A DNA stretch of 20,794 bases from a virus. Positions within the stretch are counted from its first letter, which is position 1, and each line of letters begins with the position of its first letter. This document shows positions 8,369 through 15,067 of the stretch, piece after piece. The notes below the pieces were generated by a model. The model made no database searches, was not told the origin of the DNA, and saw only the letters and a list, made by a program, of their open reading frames with translations. The position numbers and the translations under genes are program-made. The stretch is from the IMG/VR virus record IMGVR_UViG_3300036846_000735, positions 1 through 20,794 of that record, one strand, 5' to 3'.

Positions 8369-11064
8369 CACACCACCGTCGCGCGATTATGACGGATCAC
8401 CTGACCAGTATCACGATCCTGCGTGTATTTGATCCGCTTGGCGGTCGCATCCGGCCCATGCGTCTCATGTACATGATAGGTGTTGTTCTGAACCACCTGG
8501 GTCGGCTGTTGCCCCCCACGATGGAAGCGCGCGTAGGCCTGCGCCCCCCAGCCCAGCCGTGCGGTTTGGATATCATTCGCCCGCTCCTGGGCGGCGGCCA
8601 GTGCCGCCGATCGGCGCACGGTCACATCGCTGCGCCAGCGCGTGCCGGGGATATTGAGAAGCTCCCCATTGGGGCCAATGGTATTCGAGGATATCTCCTC
8701 GACTTCGCCCGGTCGGTGCCCCGGTGTATTGAGCCATGTCCGCCCGGTCGCGACACCGACATGTTTGAGGTTCTTATTAAGCAAGACATCGCCCTTGCGT
8801 AAGGCGTTGGCCGCAACCGCATAGCCCCACGTGGCAAAGCTGCGCGCCATCAGACGACTAGACCCTTGGGTCCCCGGCACGCCCGCGTGTTGCAGATACG
8901 CGTTGGTAAATTCCGCGCACCATAGCCCAAGTTCGGGATCACGCTGGATAACACCATGTGGGTCTTTGAGAAATTCACGCACCGCCTCGCCGCGATGCCC
9001 CGCCAGCCCGACCATCTGATCAACCACATTAGCTGGCTTGCCGTCACCCCCAAGAATTCCGCTGGTGTCGCCGCCAATCGGCGGGGCCGCCGTGGTTTCA
9101 AACGCGCTTGCTCCCATCTGCTGCACTTGCCGCATCAGTTCAGGATGGGTGTTGGTCCACGGCTGGATGCCGCGTGTCGCCACCAGATGGCCCGCCATCT
9201 GCTTTTGCACTTCCGGCGTAAACATGGTTGTCGCCGGATCGAGATGCAGCGCCTTTATTTGATCCCGAATGGTATCGGCGGTGATCTGAAACGCTCCGAC
9301 AGGCGTGTGTCCCGTCCGTGCTAACATCCCTTTCTGATAGTCCAGAACTTGGTTTAGTGTCTTATGGATGAGATCGACCTTTTCCCCGCCATAGACTTCG
9401 TTGTAGTCGATCGCGCCCTTATGAAATGTGCCTTCCGCCCGCGAGATTAGCTCAGCGGCGGCATCGGTGAGCGCGCCAATCCCACCGGAACCGACAGGCC
9501 CACCACCGGGGCCAAGCGGCGAGCCGGTTTCACCCCCGCCGCCGCCGCCGCCGCCGCCTCCGCCGCCTCCTCCGCCGCCACTGCCGCCGCCGTCGCCACC
9601 GGTTGTCGCGGGAGCCGTCGTGCCATCCGGCTTTTTGACCCCAAGCTTATCCAACGTCTCATCCGTCAGATCGACCTGCGGGCGATAAGAACTGTCGCCG
9701 GCAAACCAACCGAGAAATGACTGTAAGAGACGCTTTGAGGTCTCGCCGATCGAACCGGAACCACCCGAGAAAAAGGATTGCAGCCCAGAACTGATATTGC
9801 TGGGCAGCACCATCTCGCCGTGGTGCAGCGTGGCATCGACAATACCACCATGCTGCATCGCTGGCTTTTTGTCGCCGCTGCCCTGGAAGAGCTTACCAAT
9901 CAAATAAAACGGATCGAGATAATTTGCCTTCCACCAATCGTCTTTGCTTTCCCGCGATTTAGGATCGGTGACCGTCTTGTAGACTTCGTAAGCGCCGCCA
10001 GCCGCCCCAGCATAGACACCAAATTTACCCAACCATCCCAGCCTGCCGCCTGCTGTCGCCCCCGCAGCACCCGCCGCCTTAGCCGCAGCCTCGGTCTTCC
10101 ACAATGCCGAGGCCAAGCCACCAACGGCCCCGGTCAAGGTCTGGATCATGCCAACGATTTTGACCCCAAACGACAGCGCCCACAGTCCCCCCAGCACTTC
10201 GAGGATCAGCTTGATATGGTTGAGGCCCCACAGCAGATAGGGGATCAGATCATGAATAGCCGTGGCAAAATCGTGGATTGATTGTTGCCCTTCAGGACTG
10301 ATCACCCAGTTGGTCAGGGCTGTGCCGATCTCCTCGACCGCCTTGGTAACCTTGGGATCGGTAATGATCTCACCAAAGACAACCTGAAAAGTATGGGCAA
10401 GCGTGGCAAACGTTTGCTCCATCTTGATCGAGTTATCTTCAAACCGCTGCGCTTCCTGTTCCCGCGTCGTGCCCCGCTGTTTGGCAATCGCATCGTAGAG
10501 CGCGTCGCTCGCCGCAGCAGCACGCCGCAGCGCTTCCTGATGGTGATAGGCGTCTTGGACGACACGAACGAGTTCCTGCCCGCCCGCTTCCGCGATCTTA
10601 TCGCGTTCGACCCAGGCTTTTTTCTCGTCGCCCCCTACCGCCGCAACGGCATCACTGTATTTTTTGATCGCCGTCCAGAGAAATTCGTTGGCGTTGGTGA
10701 CATTGCCGATATAGGCGTGGACGGTCGCCGCCGTGGCGGGATCGAGCAGCTTATTATTGAGTTGCACCAAGAGCGGGCCAGCTTCACTCGCTGAATGCCC
10801 AATCGCCGACAGCGCCGCGCCAACACGCTCCATCTCCAGCGCGGTGACGTTGGCCTGCTTGGCGGCAAAGCCAAGCTGGCCAAAATGCGTCGTCGTCCGC
10901 CGCACCATCTCCTCAAGGCCGACCATCGCCCCGAGAGCAGCAATCCGAATACCGTTGAGGCCCGCGATCCCCTGTTGGACATTCTCGTGGAATTTCTTCG
11001 CCGATCCTTCATCGACAAGATATTTTAGCCTGATGACAAAGGATTGCAGTGTTTGATCAGCCAC
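8368..11064 (-). CDS. Tape measure protein with lysozyme-like and Cys-peptidase-like domains
   Basis: The protein has 898 aa, with GTG start 11064 behind GGAGGA at 8-base spacing. Residues 1-250 are mostly helical with tail-tape character. Residues about 275-320 and 335-360 are hydrophobic (LILEVLGGLWALSFGVKIV), and GGIVDATLHHGEMVLPSNI near 406-424 is a tape-measure hallmark. A 16-Gly linker (496-511) leads to a lysozyme-like region at about 535-650, with E544 in SRAEGTF as candidate catalytic Glu, then DYNEVYGGEKVDL and GAFQITADTI. Residues 678-815 resemble the TIGR02594/CHAP-like peptidase pattern, with C716 in LWCAEFTNAYLQHAG and H768 in LKHVGVATG. The C-terminus is charged. The protein sets tail length and probably locally opens peptidoglycan during DNA entry. 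Domain functions are inferred from motifs. Confidence 0.86.
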   Translation of the reverse strand: MADQTLQSFVIRLKYLVDEGSAKKFHENVQQGIAGLNGIRIAALGAMVGLEEMVRRTTTHFGQLGFAAKQANVTALEMERVGAALSAIGHSASEAGPLLVQLNNKLLDPATAATVHAYIGNVTNANEFLWTAIKKYSDAVAAVGGDEKKAWVERDKIAEAGGQELVRVVQDAYHHQEALRRAAAASDALYDAIAKQRGTTREQEAQRFEDNSIKMEQTFATLAHTFQVVFGEIITDPKVTKAVEEIGTALTNWVISPEGQQSIHDFATAIHDLIPYLLWGLNHIKLILEVLGGLWALSFGVKIVGMIQTLTGAVGGLASALWKTEAAAKAAGAAGATAGGRLGWLGKFGVYAGAAGGAYEVYKTVTDPKSRESKDDWWKANYLDPFYLIGKLFQGSGDKKPAMQHGGIVDATLHHGEMVLPSNISSGLQSFFSGGSGSIGETSKRLLQSFLGWFAGDSSYRPQVDLTDETLDKLGVKKPDGTTAPATTGGDGGGSGGGGGGGGGGGGGGGGETGSPLGPGGGPVGSGGIGALTDAAAELISRAEGTFHKGAIDYNEVYGGEKVDLIHKTLNQVLDYQKGMLARTGHTPVGAFQITADTIRDQIKALHLDPATTMFTPEVQKQMAGHLVATRGIQPWTNTHPELMRQVQQMGASAFETTAAPPIGGDTSGILGGDGKPANVVDQMVGLAGHRGEAVREFLKDPHGVIQRDPELGLWCAEFTNAYLQHAGVPGTQGSSRLMARSFATWGYAVAANALRKGDVLLNKNLKHVGVATGRTWLNTPGHRPGEVEEISSNTIGPNGELLNIPGTRWRSDVTVRRSAALAAAQERANDIQTARLGWGAQAYARFHRGGQQPTQVVQNNTYHVHETHGPDATAKRIKYTQDRDTGQVIRHNRATVV
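9532..9579 (-). repeat. Trinucleotide (GGN) microsatellite coding a 16-Gly linker
   Basis: On the plus strand this is a run of ccg/cct triplets. It codes for Gly496-Gly511 of the tape measure protein and is flanked by Gly/Ser/Pro-rich sequence. Its position between the tape part and the hydrolase-like domains makes it a flexible linker. The repeat could change length by slippage without breaking frame. Confidence 0.9.
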
Positions 11065-11236
11065 GACGGCTATCCTCCAGCGCCTCGTTTATCCGCGCCT
11101 CGTTTTCGCCCCGCACATCGAGCGCTTCGTTCATTCGGGCAACATCGAACATGTCGAGCGTGCCATCGACCAAGCTCTCGTATTTGCACAGCCCTTCGAG
11201 AACCGGACGCATGATCCAGTCCTCTTCCTCGTTCAT
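11057..11236 (-). CDS. 59-aa downstream tail-assembly-chaperone frame (T-like extension)
   Basis: This short frame runs from ATG 11236, which overlaps the preceding stop as ATGA, to TGA 11057, past the tape-measure start. The product begins MNEEEDWIMRPVLEGLCKYE and continues with LVDGTLDMFDVARMNEALDV and then RGENEARINEAL. It is acidic, helical and of even composition, unlike an antisense artefact. Proteins of this look follow the tail assembly chaperone in related phages. It can be made alone from its ATG or fused to the chaperone, since the frame stays open upstream to the T7 heptamer at 11299-11305 (80 codons from there to the stop). This mirrors lambda G/GT: the fused form would bind both tube and tape measure. 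The fusion itself is inferred. Confidence 0.75.
   Translation of the reverse strand: MNEEEDWIMRPVLEGLCKYESLVDGTLDMFDVARMNEALDVRGENEARINEALEDSRRG
11062..11078 (-). promoter_or_regulatory. Shine-Dalgarno and GTG start of the tape measure gene
   Basis: GGAGGA (11078-11073) lies 8 bases before GTG 11064. It supports the GTG start and sits inside the 3' end of the 59-aa frame, whose stop is at 11057, so the two genes are translationally coupled. Confidence 0.75.
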
Positions 11237-11673
11237 TGCGACAAAACGGACGGAGATGGGGAGACCGCGTTGTCCAAACCGTTGGGCTGGCTGCCGGGAA
11301 AAAAACTTCCGAGGTTATCCTGCAACACAGCAAAGGACAGTTGCAGCATGTCGGACATCTCCAGATCGTCAAACATCATCGTGCCCGCAGGCGTCATCAA
11401 CGGCACCCAGTTGCGCCCGTTAAACAACGAGACCGCCGACAAGCAGGTCTTGAGGCACCATTCGCTGTCCTCGGTTGACATCTCCGCGACGGCTTGCGCC
11501 ACCGGGCCAAGCGCGTGCCAGAAATTGCTCTGATCGACATTGGCAGGCATCTGCGCCCAGCTTTCCCCCAGCCCCGAGAACAGCGGCATCAGCTTGCGCA
11601 CCAGATGAAACTGCTTAAAAGCGTCGAGCTTCCCCGTGCGGTACTTGCGCCCGCTAAATTCCACCTCTTGCAT
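11233..11673 (-). CDS. Tail assembly chaperone (G-like)
   Basis: The protein has 146 aa, with ATG 11673 behind a strong GGGAGGAAG Shine-Dalgarno. It starts MQEVEFSGRKYRTGKLDAFK and continues with QFHLVRKLMPLFSGL. A mid-region KTCLSAVSL and the C-terminal MMFDDLEMSDMLQLSF with VLQDNLGSFF match myophage tail assembly chaperones located between tube and tape measure genes. Its job would be to coat the tape measure helix and recruit tube subunits. The last 21 codons after FF (PGSQPNGLDNAV onward) are the unshifted tail. The alternative -1 product would be about 205 aa (125 + 80). Downstream genes overlap it. An inverted repeat precedes it (11687-11711). Confidence 0.8.
   Translation of the reverse strand: MQEVEFSGRKYRTGKLDAFKQFHLVRKLMPLFSGLGESWAQMPANVDQSNFWHALGPVAQAVAEMSTEDSEWCLKTCLSAVSLFNGRNWVPLMTPAGTMMFDDLEMSDMLQLSFAVLQDNLGSFFPGSQPNGLDNAVSPSPSVLSQ
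11299..11305 (-). promoter_or_regulatory. Probable -1 programmed frameshift site T TTT TTT
   Basis: On the coding strand the chaperone reads AGT TTT TTT CCC, giving the in-frame heptamer T TTT TTT, an ideal X XXY YYZ slippery site. A -1 slip after codon 125 enters an 80-codon open frame that ends at 11057. An AGGA sequence ends 12 bases upstream and could stimulate slipping. No strong downstream pseudoknot was identified by eye. Transcriptional slippage on the T run could give the same product. Confidence 0.65.
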
Positions 11674-11686
11674 GATCTTCCTCCCT

Positions 11687-11711
11687 ATTCGTCACCAATT
11701 TGGTGACGAAT
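11687..11711 (-). promoter_or_regulatory. 12-bp perfect inverted repeat between tube and chaperone genes
   Basis: The arms attcgtcaccaa and ttggtgacgaat are exact reverse complements around a single central base (11699). As RNA this would form a stem of about 10 bp with a 5-base loop. It touches the tube stop codon (11713-11711) and ends one base before the chaperone Shine-Dalgarno region. No U-run follows, so it is not a standard intrinsic terminator. It may limit read-through, protect the tube mRNA 3' end or reduce chaperone translation. A DNA-binding palindrome is also possible. Confidence 0.75.
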
Positions 11712-12175
11712 TACGCAACGCCCGCCGGCACCGCGATCCCCGAGCCGAGGACAAAGTCGGTGACACCAGCATGGAACGTCCACACCATTTCTCCGCCCTC
11801 TTTCGCGTATGTGATATCGGCGAATTTGGCGAATGCACACTGCTGCATGACGATCACGTCGTTCAGTTGCAGATCGCGCACCGAGATGGTGTTAAAACCG
11901 TAGACGCCGGTCGAGGCCGTATCGCGCGCATACATCTGCGACAACACCTGATTGGTCGGTGATGTCTTTAAGAGGCGAACGGTAACGTTTGATCCCTTGC
12001 CCGCGTGCAGCGAATGCATAACACAGCCATCCGCGCCGATCGTCATCGTGCTTTTGTCCTCGACCATCGTGATCGAGATACCGCCATCACTGGCGCACGA
12101 TCCCGCGCCAAGCGTTACCGTGCCGTTGGGACCGGTGATCGAGGCGACAATGTCTTGAAAGGAGTATGTGGCGAT
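11711..12175 (-). CDS. Tail tube protein (DUF3277), apparent ATC start
   Basis: The protein has 154 aa if initiation is at ATC 12175. The frame reads ATYSFQDIVASITGPNG right after it, the conserved N-terminus of the DUF3277 tube family, which normally begins MATYSF. Other family marks are EDKSTMTIGADG, VMHSLHAGKGSNVTVRLLKT, a QLND/VIVMQQCAF region and ITYAKEGGEMVWTFHAG. An in-frame TAG lies four codons before the ATC, and no ATG, GTG or TTG precedes residue 37 (ATG 12067). A start there would delete the conserved first strand. AGGAGG lies 5 bases before the ATC. The product stacks as hexameric rings inside the sheath. The upstream HNH gene separates it from the sheath gene. Confidence 0.85.
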   Translation of the reverse strand: MATYSFQDIVASITGPNGTVTLGAGSCASDGGISITMVEDKSTMTIGADGCVMHSLHAGKGSNVTVRLLKTSPTNQVLSQMYARDTASTGVYGFNTISVRDLQLNDVIVMQQCAFAKFADITYAKEGGEMVWTFHAGVTDFVLGSGIAVPAGVA

Positions 12176-12186
12176 TTTAGCCTCCT
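12173..12186 (-). promoter_or_regulatory. Ideal Shine-Dalgarno in front of an ATC start codon
   Basis: AGGAGG (12186-12181) is followed by CTAAA and then ATC (12175-12173). The spacing is optimal, yet the codon is not a standard initiator. Either ATC is used here, or the sequenced molecule carries a mutated or misread ATG. Confidence 0.65.
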
Positions 12187-12187
12187 A

Positions 12188-12919
12188 TCACTTGGGTTGT
12201 ACTGTACGACGACGAGGACCGCTTTTCTTGCGGTTATCTTCGGCGAACAGCGGTTGCAGATTTGTGTAGTGGCAGGCTTCGAGAAACTGGTTTCGATCGG
12301 TGAGATCAAACGAGGCCAGCGGCTTCTTATGATCGACATGCCAGACCGGGCCGTAATTTTCCCAGGTCATGCCCGGCAGAAAACGAGCCTCAAGCCACGC
12401 CTTCAATTCCGTGGGCAAACAACCCAGATCACGTATCGCCGAGCCGCCCCTTAGCTCTCCGCGTACTACCTTACATAGGCGGCGGCGTAGGTAGGCCTTT
12501 AATTTGTAAACAACATCCGTCGCCAGTTTTTCTTTCTGCCAATCGCGCAAACGCGCCTTGACCTTATCGAGATTGTTCTTGCGATAGGCGACGCTGCGCG
12601 CCATCTCGGTTTCCGGGTCTTGGTAATAAGCGACATGCCGCCTTGCACGCGCCTTTGCTCGAAGCACGTCGCCGTTCTCAGAATAATATTCCGCGAAGCG
12701 CAGGCTCTGCATCTTGGGATCGCGACGGGCGTTGGCTTCCTTGACTTTATCTGGATTGCGTTCACCCCAACGCGCCGTAGCTTCTCGCTCACATTCGCGG
12801 CAACCACGGCTAGCTACGCGCCTCTCAGCAATGTGGCCACGCGGGCACGGCTTACCCGTAAAGTAAGCCGTAAGCCCCTTCTCGACCGCTCTCTGCCGCG
12901 ATATAATTACGTAAGCCAT
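12188..12919 (-). CDS. HNH homing-type endonuclease 1 (between sheath and tube genes)
   Basis: The protein has 243 aa from ATG 12919, inside the last 13 bases of the sheath gene. The frame extends far upstream, but that part is only the sheath gene in another frame. Residues 19-43 form a Cys/His zinc-binding type motif (FTGKPC25PRGH29, then C40-x2-C43). The middle is Arg/Lys-rich and helical. The C-terminus holds the HNH core: W193-H194-V-D196-H197, then TN220LQPL and DN229, preceded by PGMTWENYG. The HNH motif binds a metal and cuts DNA. It closely resembles the second HNH protein here (16195-16905). No clear Shine-Dalgarno precedes it. It looks like a free-standing homing gene inserted between two essential structural genes. 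Confidence 0.87.
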   Translation of the reverse strand: MAYVIISRQRAVEKGLTAYFTGKPCPRGHIAERRVASRGCRECEREATARWGERNPDKVKEANARRDPKMQSLRFAEYYSENGDVLRAKARARRHVAYYQDPETEMARSVAYRKNNLDKVKARLRDWQKEKLATDVVYKLKAYLRRRLCKVVRGELRGGSAIRDLGCLPTELKAWLEARFLPGMTWENYGPVWHVDHKKPLASFDLTDRNQFLEACHYTNLQPLFAEDNRKKSGPRRRTVQPK

Positions 12920-14451
12920 TGATAAATAAAGGCTTGCATCGTAACACCTAAACCAACCGCCGCCAACAAGGCCCGGTTGACATTGATGAGCACATTTGCG
13001 AAGTGAATTGCCCCGGCCAACTTCACCGCAATCTGGATCAGCGGGGCGATACGGGCTTCGCGATCGGATTGCGCCTGGGTATCGACCGAATTGGCAAAGG
13101 TGTACCAGCCGTTCGCCAGATAATCGCCGTATTGCAGCGTGCCAAAGCCCGGTGCATTCCACACGCCGGGCGCGATCAGTCCGTTGATGACGCCCTGGCT
13201 CAGCCCGCCATCGGCCTTGTTGACCAACATATGCACACCGGGATTGGTCTGCGGCACCTTTGGTGACTGGTAGAGCAAATTCCACATATCGTTCTGGATG
13301 CGGTTGGCTAACCAATCCAAGCCGTGGATTTCGTCCCAGTAAGCGCGACCGGACATCACGCCTTCCTCAACGATCGATGTGCCGTTGTTGTACTGGACGT
13401 AGGTATTACACCGTTTATTGGCGAGCGTTGAGGCCTGCGCGCCAGTGAGCAGTTCTGGGATGACACCGGGCTGCACCTTGAATTTCGCCGTCAGCGTGGT
13501 GTTCGATCCCTCAAAATTGACCGTCAGCACGCGGCCAAAGAATGAGGCGATCGCGTAGGCATTGGTGATCGAATATTGCAGCACAGTGCGCATGTAATCG
13601 GCCAGCATCGCCTGACTGGCGAGATCGGTGCTGTTGGTCGGATCAAGCGTGATCGCCTCAGCCGTCGTCGCCCCATAGACATGCTTATCCGCCGCCGCCT
13701 CGATATAGGCCGAATTGGCAAGGTGCTGCGCATCGGTAAGGGCCACCGAGGCGGCAAACATCGCGGCGTACCAACCACGCCCATCCACCCGCGCCAGCGC
13801 CGCCACGGGCGTCTCCGGAGCGAGGCCCTGCGCGCTGCGCTCGGCCAAGGCCGCTGTCATGTGAAGCTGCGCCGACAGATCGACACCGGTCGCGGGCGCG
13901 GTGAGAAAACCAACCGTCGATGTCACGCCCGTCGTGCCGCTGGTCATAATAAACTGCTGACCATTCCAGATAAATATCGCGGTCGGTACGCTGATCTGCA
14001 CCTGCGTCTGGATAATCGAGGCGACACCGTTGAGATTGACCACGCCCGCCAGATTGATCCCGGTGATATGGACCACCGCGCCGCCATCAACGATGACATC
14101 AAAGGCCCCGTTGGCGACGCCTGTCCAGGCGCTCAGAAGCTGCTCGACAGGCGGTAGCGGTCCGCCGGTCAGGCGACCTGCCGTCGCGGTGCGCGCCCAC
14201 GTCCCGATATAGAGAAGACTGGGCTGTGGTATCTGGCCAAAGAACAGGACCGCCGCGCTGTATTCCGGCCCGGTGGTGCCAAAATCCCCGGTCACCTCCT
14301 CGATCGTGTTGTATTCGCGGATCGCCTCCCCCGCATCAACAATGCCCGTGTCGCCGAGGATCAGCAGCGTATCAAAACGCGTCTGCGGGGCGGCCTGCGG
14401 GGCAAAGCTCACCTGAACATCAACCACGCGTGAAACGGATAAGCCCTGCAT
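12907..14451 (-). CDS. Tail sheath protein (DUF3383)
   Basis: The protein has 514 aa from ATG 14451, behind AAGGAG at 7 bases. An in-frame upstream start at 14511 would overlap the preceding gene and lacks family similarity. The N-terminus MQGLSVSRVVDVQVSFAPQA, then FDTLLILGDTGIVD, EYNTIEEVTGDFGTTGPEYS and SLLYIGTWAR match the DUF3383 myophage sheath family. The C-terminal domain has AIHFANVLINVNR. In the family as I remember it, proteins often end near this NVNR; here 21 further residues (ALLAAVGLGV onward) follow and overlap the inserted HNH gene. The sheath contracts to drive the tube through the envelope. It is followed by HNH 1 and then the tube gene. Confidence 0.88.
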   Translation of the reverse strand: MQGLSVSRVVDVQVSFAPQAAPQTRFDTLLILGDTGIVDAGEAIREYNTIEEVTGDFGTTGPEYSAAVLFFGQIPQPSLLYIGTWARTATAGRLTGGPLPPVEQLLSAWTGVANGAFDVIVDGGAVVHITGINLAGVVNLNGVASIIQTQVQISVPTAIFIWNGQQFIMTSGTTGVTSTVGFLTAPATGVDLSAQLHMTAALAERSAQGLAPETPVAALARVDGRGWYAAMFAASVALTDAQHLANSAYIEAAADKHVYGATTAEAITLDPTNSTDLASQAMLADYMRTVLQYSITNAYAIASFFGRVLTVNFEGSNTTLTAKFKVQPGVIPELLTGAQASTLANKRCNTYVQYNNGTSIVEEGVMSGRAYWDEIHGLDWLANRIQNDMWNLLYQSPKVPQTNPGVHMLVNKADGGLSQGVINGLIAPGVWNAPGFGTLQYGDYLANGWYTFANSVDTQAQSDREARIAPLIQIAVKLAGAIHFANVLINVNRALLAAVGLGVTMQAFIYQWLT

Positions 14452-14464
14452 GGGAAGTCTCCTT
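14449..14464 (-). promoter_or_regulatory. Shine-Dalgarno and start of the sheath gene
   Basis: AAGGAG (14464-14459) lies 7 bases before ATG 14451. It overlaps the stop region of the preceding gene and decides the start in favour of MQGLSVSRVV. Confidence 0.75.
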
Positions 14465-15067
14465 TTAAGCGGGACGGGTAAAAATAGCGGCGATCGGATC
14501 GAGAACTTCAAACACCGTCAGGGACATCTGCGTCAGTGTGGCGGTGCCCGCCTGGGCGCGGAAAGCCGCGTCAAACCAGTATTGCTGCCCGCTGATCATC
14601 CCGGTGAGGAGCGTGCTCACGCCAAACGGATCAAAGTCATTGGAGCGCGAGGACAGCATGCTCACCATATTGCCAACCAGTTGGCCGTTGGTGGCGGTGA
14701 CCAGCGTGCCCGCCGCAGGCGGCGTGCCCTGACCCCACACCAGTTGCAGATCACTGCCATTACCATTTTGGGTATTACCCAGCATCCCATCGAGCAAGAG
14801 GATCGCGCGGCTGTCGTTGGTTGGTGTGATATCGACACCAATGCCCGCCGTTACAAAAGCGGGCGAATTGCTATTGGGCGGGTTCGCGGTGATTAGGGTC
14901 ACCGCGATCTGCGAGCGCAGCTTCAGTGCGGCGATATCGGCTTGCACCGCCGCCAGCGCGGTTTGCAGATCACTGATCTCGTTGGCGGCGGTTCCAAAGT
15001 TATTCCGCATATCGGCGGTATAGGCCGCGCCTTCGGCAGGCACCAACGGATCGATGTTTGATGTCAT
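14465..15067 (-). CDS. Structural protein of unknown role between neck and sheath genes
   Basis: The protein has 200 aa, starting at ATG 15067 and overlapping the upstream stop as ATGA. Residues 1-50 read DPLVPAEGAAYTADMRNNFG and then a helix EISDLQTALAAVQADIAALK, a likely short coiled coil for oligomerisation. Residues 60-200 are beta-rich (VTLITANPPNSNSP, AILLLDGMLGNT, YWFDAAFRAQAGTATLTQMS). This arrangement of a trimeric helix followed by a beta head would suit a neck or head-tail fibre. I do not recognise a named family. No transmembrane or enzymatic motif is seen. Confidence 0.7.
   Translation of the reverse strand: MTSNIDPLVPAEGAAYTADMRNNFGTAANEISDLQTALAAVQADIAALKLRSQIAVTLITANPPNSNSPAFVTAGIGVDITPTNDSRAILLLDGMLGNTQNGNGSDLQLVWGQGTPPAAGTLVTATNGQLVGNMVSMLSSRSNDFDPFGVSTLLTGMISGQQYWFDAAFRAQAGTATLTQMSLTVFEVLDPIAAIFTRPA

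Follow-up and report, generated by a model that had tools for sequence, protein, structure and literature searches.

Gene Content of the Tail Module

The window analyzed here, that is, the whole 20,794-nucleotide stretch of the virus record IMGVR_UViG_3300036846_000735 (20.8 kb), carries on its minus strand a contractile-tail module whose genes follow one another in the order sheath, endonuclease-like open reading frame (ORF), tail tube, tail assembly chaperone (TAC), DUF6889, and tape measure; hub and baseplate-like genes come past the tape measure (table 1). The chaperone thus lies between the tail tube and the tape measure, as in G/GT-type systems; the original prediction had likewise drawn on the order ahead of the tape measure gene. 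The TAC protein matches Phage_TAC_15 with 87.5 bits (curated cut-off 22), and the 59-aa frame that follows it matches DUF6889 with 59.7 bits (curated cut-off 23.9). Both PF21829/DUF6889 and phrog_4364 are listed with unknown function.

Table 1. Features of the chaperone locus and its surroundings (positions in the window unless a relative is named)
Feature	Position	Strand	Evidence
Tail sheath	12907–14511	−	PF11863, E 3e-123; phrog_205 tail sheath, E 5.7e-113
Tail tube (KPP10_Orf10)	11711–12175	−	PF11681, E 3.8e-33; directly upstream of TAC
TAC, short form, G-like, 146 aa	11233–11673	−	PF21822 Phage_TAC_15, E 1.3e-24; phrog_1688 tail assembly chaperone, E 8e-30
Shine–Dalgarno-like AGGA, ending 12 nt ahead of the heptamer	11318–11321	−	pairing of −4.1 kcal/mol in the window
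Slippery heptamer T TTT TTT, Phe124–Phe125 in frame	11299–11305	−	sequence; heptamer conservation in the family
Open −1 frame up to the ATG, then the 59-aa T-like part	11060–11314	−	sequence; family comparison
ATGA overlap: TAC stop and ATG of the 59-aa frame	11233–11236	−	sequence
59-aa frame, DUF6889, T-like C-terminal domain	11057–11236	−	PF21829, E 2.2e-16; phrog_4364, E 6.8e-22
Predicted frameshift fusion, GT-like, 205 aa	11057–11673	−	translation; colinear with natural in-frame fusions and with the annotated frameshift products of Mulock and Magia
Tape measure protein, 898 aa	8368–11064	−	phrog_12506 tail length tape measure, E 1.5e-6; position; GTG start, GGAGG at 11078–11074
Two-gene loci: solo TAC and separate in-frame TAC-DUF6889	L251, L253, L254, L256, L075:2144–3171		

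Two further observations concern the neighboring genes. The ORF between sheath and tube (12188–12919, minus strand) matches endonuclease VII (phrog_1035, E 1.1e-14) and shows an HNH-like motif at its C-terminus, spotted by eye; it had no match at E < 1 among Pfam profiles and none in Rfam, which also returned no RNA family, such as a group I intron, anywhere in the window. This ORF is probably a mobile endonuclease gene. At the start of the tube gene (12172–12186, minus strand) AGGAGG is present, but ATC stands where close relatives show ATG or GTG before GCN-ACN-TAY; this is either an error in the sequence or a rare case of initiation at AUC.

Slip Site and Reading Frames in the Window

The in-frame heptamer T TTT TTT reported earlier is indeed present, at codons 124–125 of the 146-codon TAC gene, a slip site of the kind found in G/GT-type genes. 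Past it, the 0 frame adds 21 further residues before the TGA at 11235–11233. The −1 frame opens right behind a TAA, at 11314, and, as had been proposed, continues without a stop into the 59-aa frame ending at 11057. The original count of 31 open −1 codons needs correction, as there are 26 ahead of the ATG, of which 21 lie past the heptamer. Within the window the heptamer does not stand out by itself, since the tail genes there mostly encode Phe by TTT (69 TTT vs. 17 TTC). Its significance rests instead on the relatives, since frame, site, and openness are kept family-wide.

Conservation of Frame and Slip Site in the Family

Loci were gathered from viral contigs, named phages, and bacterial genomes, and 227 of them carry both TAC and DUF6889. 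Searching genome contigs with the TAC protein alone gave no close relatives, and the DUF6889 alignment then gave 60; near-identical phages were also sought, and none were found. Relative to TAC, DUF6889 lies in the −1 frame at 219 of the 227 loci and never in the +1 frame, the remaining 8 being single in-frame ORFs. After clustering at 50% TAC identity (n = 88), the corresponding numbers are 84, 0, and 4.

Dereplication at 70% identity left 124 frameshift-type (non-fused) loci, which were compared with synonymous-codon shuffles of each locus's TAC gene. An X XXY YYZ heptamer stands at the site in 108 loci (38.8 expected), T TTT in 121 (39.1 expected), and the −1 frame runs unbroken between the site and the end of TAC in 123 (81.9 expected); as clusters at 70% identity are not fully independent, these figures are comparisons rather than exact probabilities. 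Past the site, the residues encoded in the −1 frame are at several positions more conserved than those of the 0 frame, for example an Arg at position 3 (82 of 120 loci). Frame relation, slip site, open −1 frame, upstream element (see below), and two-domain architecture all emerge from this comparison, and a chance origin is implausible.

The heptamers found at this one homologous site are varied. TTTTTTT is the commonest (38 of the 124 loci), followed by TTTTTTC (26), CCCTTTT (15), GGGAAAT (9, within GGGAAATTTTTTG), GGGTTTT (8), AAATTTT (6), and a few others. The original prediction had named two observations that would count against it, stops in the −1 frame of relatives and loss of the T run beside an intact 59-aa gene. 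Regarding the former, stops between heptamer and domain are absent from all dereplicated loci except L142 (positions ~300–520), from Candidatus Glomeribacter, a fungal endosymbiont, in which a −1 stop precedes DUF6889 while the heptamer is kept in GGGAAATTTTTTG; this locus is plausibly decaying. As to the latter, other slippery sites occupy the same position where the T run is missing, and a canonical heptamer was scored absent from the open zone in 17 of the 124 loci, most of which retain T TTT with an A behind it (GCCTTTTA and the like). Loci such as L044, L054, L104, L122, and L127, often in Burkholderiales-type prophages, are of this kind, keeping T TTT A (GCCTTTTA, TCCTTTTA). The motifs "twofour" and "twoonefour," proposed from annotated phage frameshifts (PMC10885494), are taken here to cover such T TTT A-type sites.

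Candidate Stimulatory Elements

Shine–Dalgarno-like pairing exceeds the synonymous expectation at codons −21 to −6 (120 loci; P ~ 1e-9, ignoring kinship) and, more weakly, in the overlapping stretch from −30 to −15 (P ~ 0.01), with no excess in stretches further upstream. The AGGA ahead of the window's heptamer is, on this comparative ground, likely to be a frameshift stimulator. Downstream RNA folding gives a weak signal across the family (mean z −0.89 vs. −0.14 to −0.51 in controls), and in the window itself no strong RNA structure was seen downstream of the heptamer (z −0.74). A strong downstream hairpin was considered as a universal stimulator and rejected, since none is seen family-wide and clear hairpins are confined to few relatives, L010 and L014 among them.

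In-Frame Fusions and Two-Gene Relatives

Some relatives encode TAC and DUF6889 in a single frame. In L075 and in L073/L256, a solo TAC gene is followed by a fused TAC-DUF6889 gene; in L251 (Methylobacterium sp. J-068), the order is solo TAC, a large ORF and the tape measure gene, and then the in-frame TAC-DUF6889 gene; and in M. ajmalii the solo and fused genes lie on separate contigs. Judging from these arrangements, a solo TAC and a separate fusion gene replace the frameshift in Methylobacterium and in two viral contigs. Independent origins of the in-frame fusions were considered and are not supported, the fused copies of Methylobacterium and L073/L075 grouping together (support 94/96, not a firm fork). 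The Sutterella fusion (L149) may be a sequencing error because an ambiguous base stands at its junction.

The linker between the end of the TAC profile and DUF6889 spans 21 codons in the fusions, a length similar to the 20–30 codons that separate the slip site from DUF6889 in frameshifted loci; in the alignment, fused and frameshifted proteins join at the slip position. Such natural fusions indicate that TAC and DUF6889 are genuinely produced as one joined protein. We modeled the Methylobacterium sp. J-068 fusion with AlphaFold2, from an alignment without rows from phage records. In the model, confidence is high for the TAC domain and for the helical DUF6889 (mean pLDDT 87) and low for a linker that begins past the slip position. 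Among the predicted viral structures that match it best are some bearing the name tail assembly chaperone, and comparison with solved structures gave no significant fold match.

A Probable Frameshifted Chaperone Pair and Its Alternatives

Taken as a whole, profile matches, gene order, conservation of frame and slip site, natural fusions, and two annotated relatives agree with the −1 frameshift and G/GT-type chaperone pair first proposed for this locus, and we hold it very probable that the locus of this contractile-tailed phage encodes such a pair.

The 59-aa frame might instead be an ordinary separate gene, translated without any frameshift by coupled re-initiation at the ATGA. This overlap occurs in the window and in several close relatives, and an ATG lies near the domain start in 64 of the 124 dereplicated loci. 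However, within the stretch searched ahead of the conserved DUF6889 core, 35 of these loci lack any ATG, GTG, or TTG. Only 32 offer a start whose Shine–Dalgarno pairing reaches −5 kcal/mol or better, and the ATG of the window itself has no Shine–Dalgarno pairing match. With so many loci lacking a start codon and so few having a paired one, a free DUF6889 protein is unsupported as a conserved product. A separate gene would also leave unexplained why the frame is never +1, why the −1 frame is open upstream of the ATG, and why slippery sites are present, and in-frame fusions exist; we consider it very unlikely as a full account. The suggestion that both a fused and a free form may be made therefore holds in part: the 59-aa frame does have its own ATG, and coupled re-initiation there may occur in the window's own clade, whereas separate initiation of the 59-aa protein is not conserved across the family.

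The seven T's of the window would also suit transcriptional slippage, with an extra U in some mRNAs, and the fused product would be nearly identical. Polymerase slippage is known to require a run of a certain length, and many relatives have CCCTTTT, GGGAAAT, or NCCTTTTA at the site, where the runs are too short; moreover, the Shine–Dalgarno-like element upstream acts on ribosomes. Slippage of the polymerase rather than of the ribosome is very unlikely indeed. That the two frames are merely a single gene broken by sequencing or assembly error, or by decay, could be argued from the relatives in which TAC-DUF6889 forms one ORF. Most of these, however, carry a solo TAC as well, and 84 of the 88 clusters show this −1 break, so that this explanation can be given practically no weight.

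Under the −1 ribosomal frameshift that we favor, most ribosomes would read TAC to its TGA and yield the 146-aa short chaperone, which would coat the tape measure protein. A minority, probably slowed by the upstream Shine–Dalgarno-like sequence, would move back by one base at T TTT TTT, read the 21-codon linker in the −1 frame and then DUF6889, and so produce the 205-aa long form. The expectation is that this form binds the tape measure by its TAC part and recruits the tail tube protein by DUF6889. Both the short and the fused protein are predicted to be made, the short one in excess; the ratio of the two, their binding partners, and the absence of both from the virion are inferred from lambda.

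It is also conceivable, though we regard it as rather unlikely, that a T TTT core on which a single Phe tRNA re-pairs suffices for the slip, together with the upstream Shine–Dalgarno-like brake.

Comparison with Known Systems and Significance

Frameshifted tail chaperones are a textbook trait of tailed phages, exemplified by gpG/gpGT of lambda, in which a short chaperone and a −1 frameshifted long form bridge the tape measure and tail tube proteins (PMC5009743). The locus described here shares this pairing of a short form with a frameshifted long one, but differs in its protein families (TAC_15 and DUF6889), its contractile tail, and its slippery heptamer. Closer counterparts are Klebsiella phage Mulock and Burkholderia phage Magia, whose records annotate a "tape measure chaperone frameshift product," the Magia frameshift being also in print (PMC7883833). 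They share with the window the TAC_15 and DUF6889 families, the −1 frame, and the gene order, but their slippery sites are GGGAAATTTTTTG and CCCTTTT instead of TTTTTTT, and their TAC proteins are at most 34% identical to that of the window. Because these frameshifts were already annotated, the window is a well-supported addition to a known frameshifted family, and what is added here is modest: a role for DUF6889, the range of slippery sites in use, and relatives that rely on two genes.

We found no paper mentioning DUF6889 in the literature searched, and in most phage records examined it is unannotated, "hypothetical," or labeled "NTP pyrophosphohydrolase"; the fused product is therefore missing from those annotations. 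The last label occurs, for instance, in Klebsiella phage ST16-OXA48phi5.2 (L082, 2959–3111), where it is most likely a misannotation. What is suggested for DUF6889 (phrog_4364) is a function as the half of the TAC_15 chaperone that is encoded in the −1 frame.

T4-like phages are described as using two genes instead of a frameshift, one for the short form alone and another for the fused long form (Vladimirov, Gautam and Davidson 2022, cited in PMC10885494). To judge by this published description, their pair resembles that of the Methylobacterium and L073/L075 relatives, with two genes in place of a frameshift, and differs from the window, which itself uses the frameshift. The chaperone family studied here has two routes to the same protein pair, a frameshift or two genes. 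If one-tRNA slippage holds true, the upstream codon would be free to drift off the classical heptamer, examples being the loci with GCCTTTTA, GATTTTA, and TCTTTTA, and this family would offer a natural series for studying such slippage.
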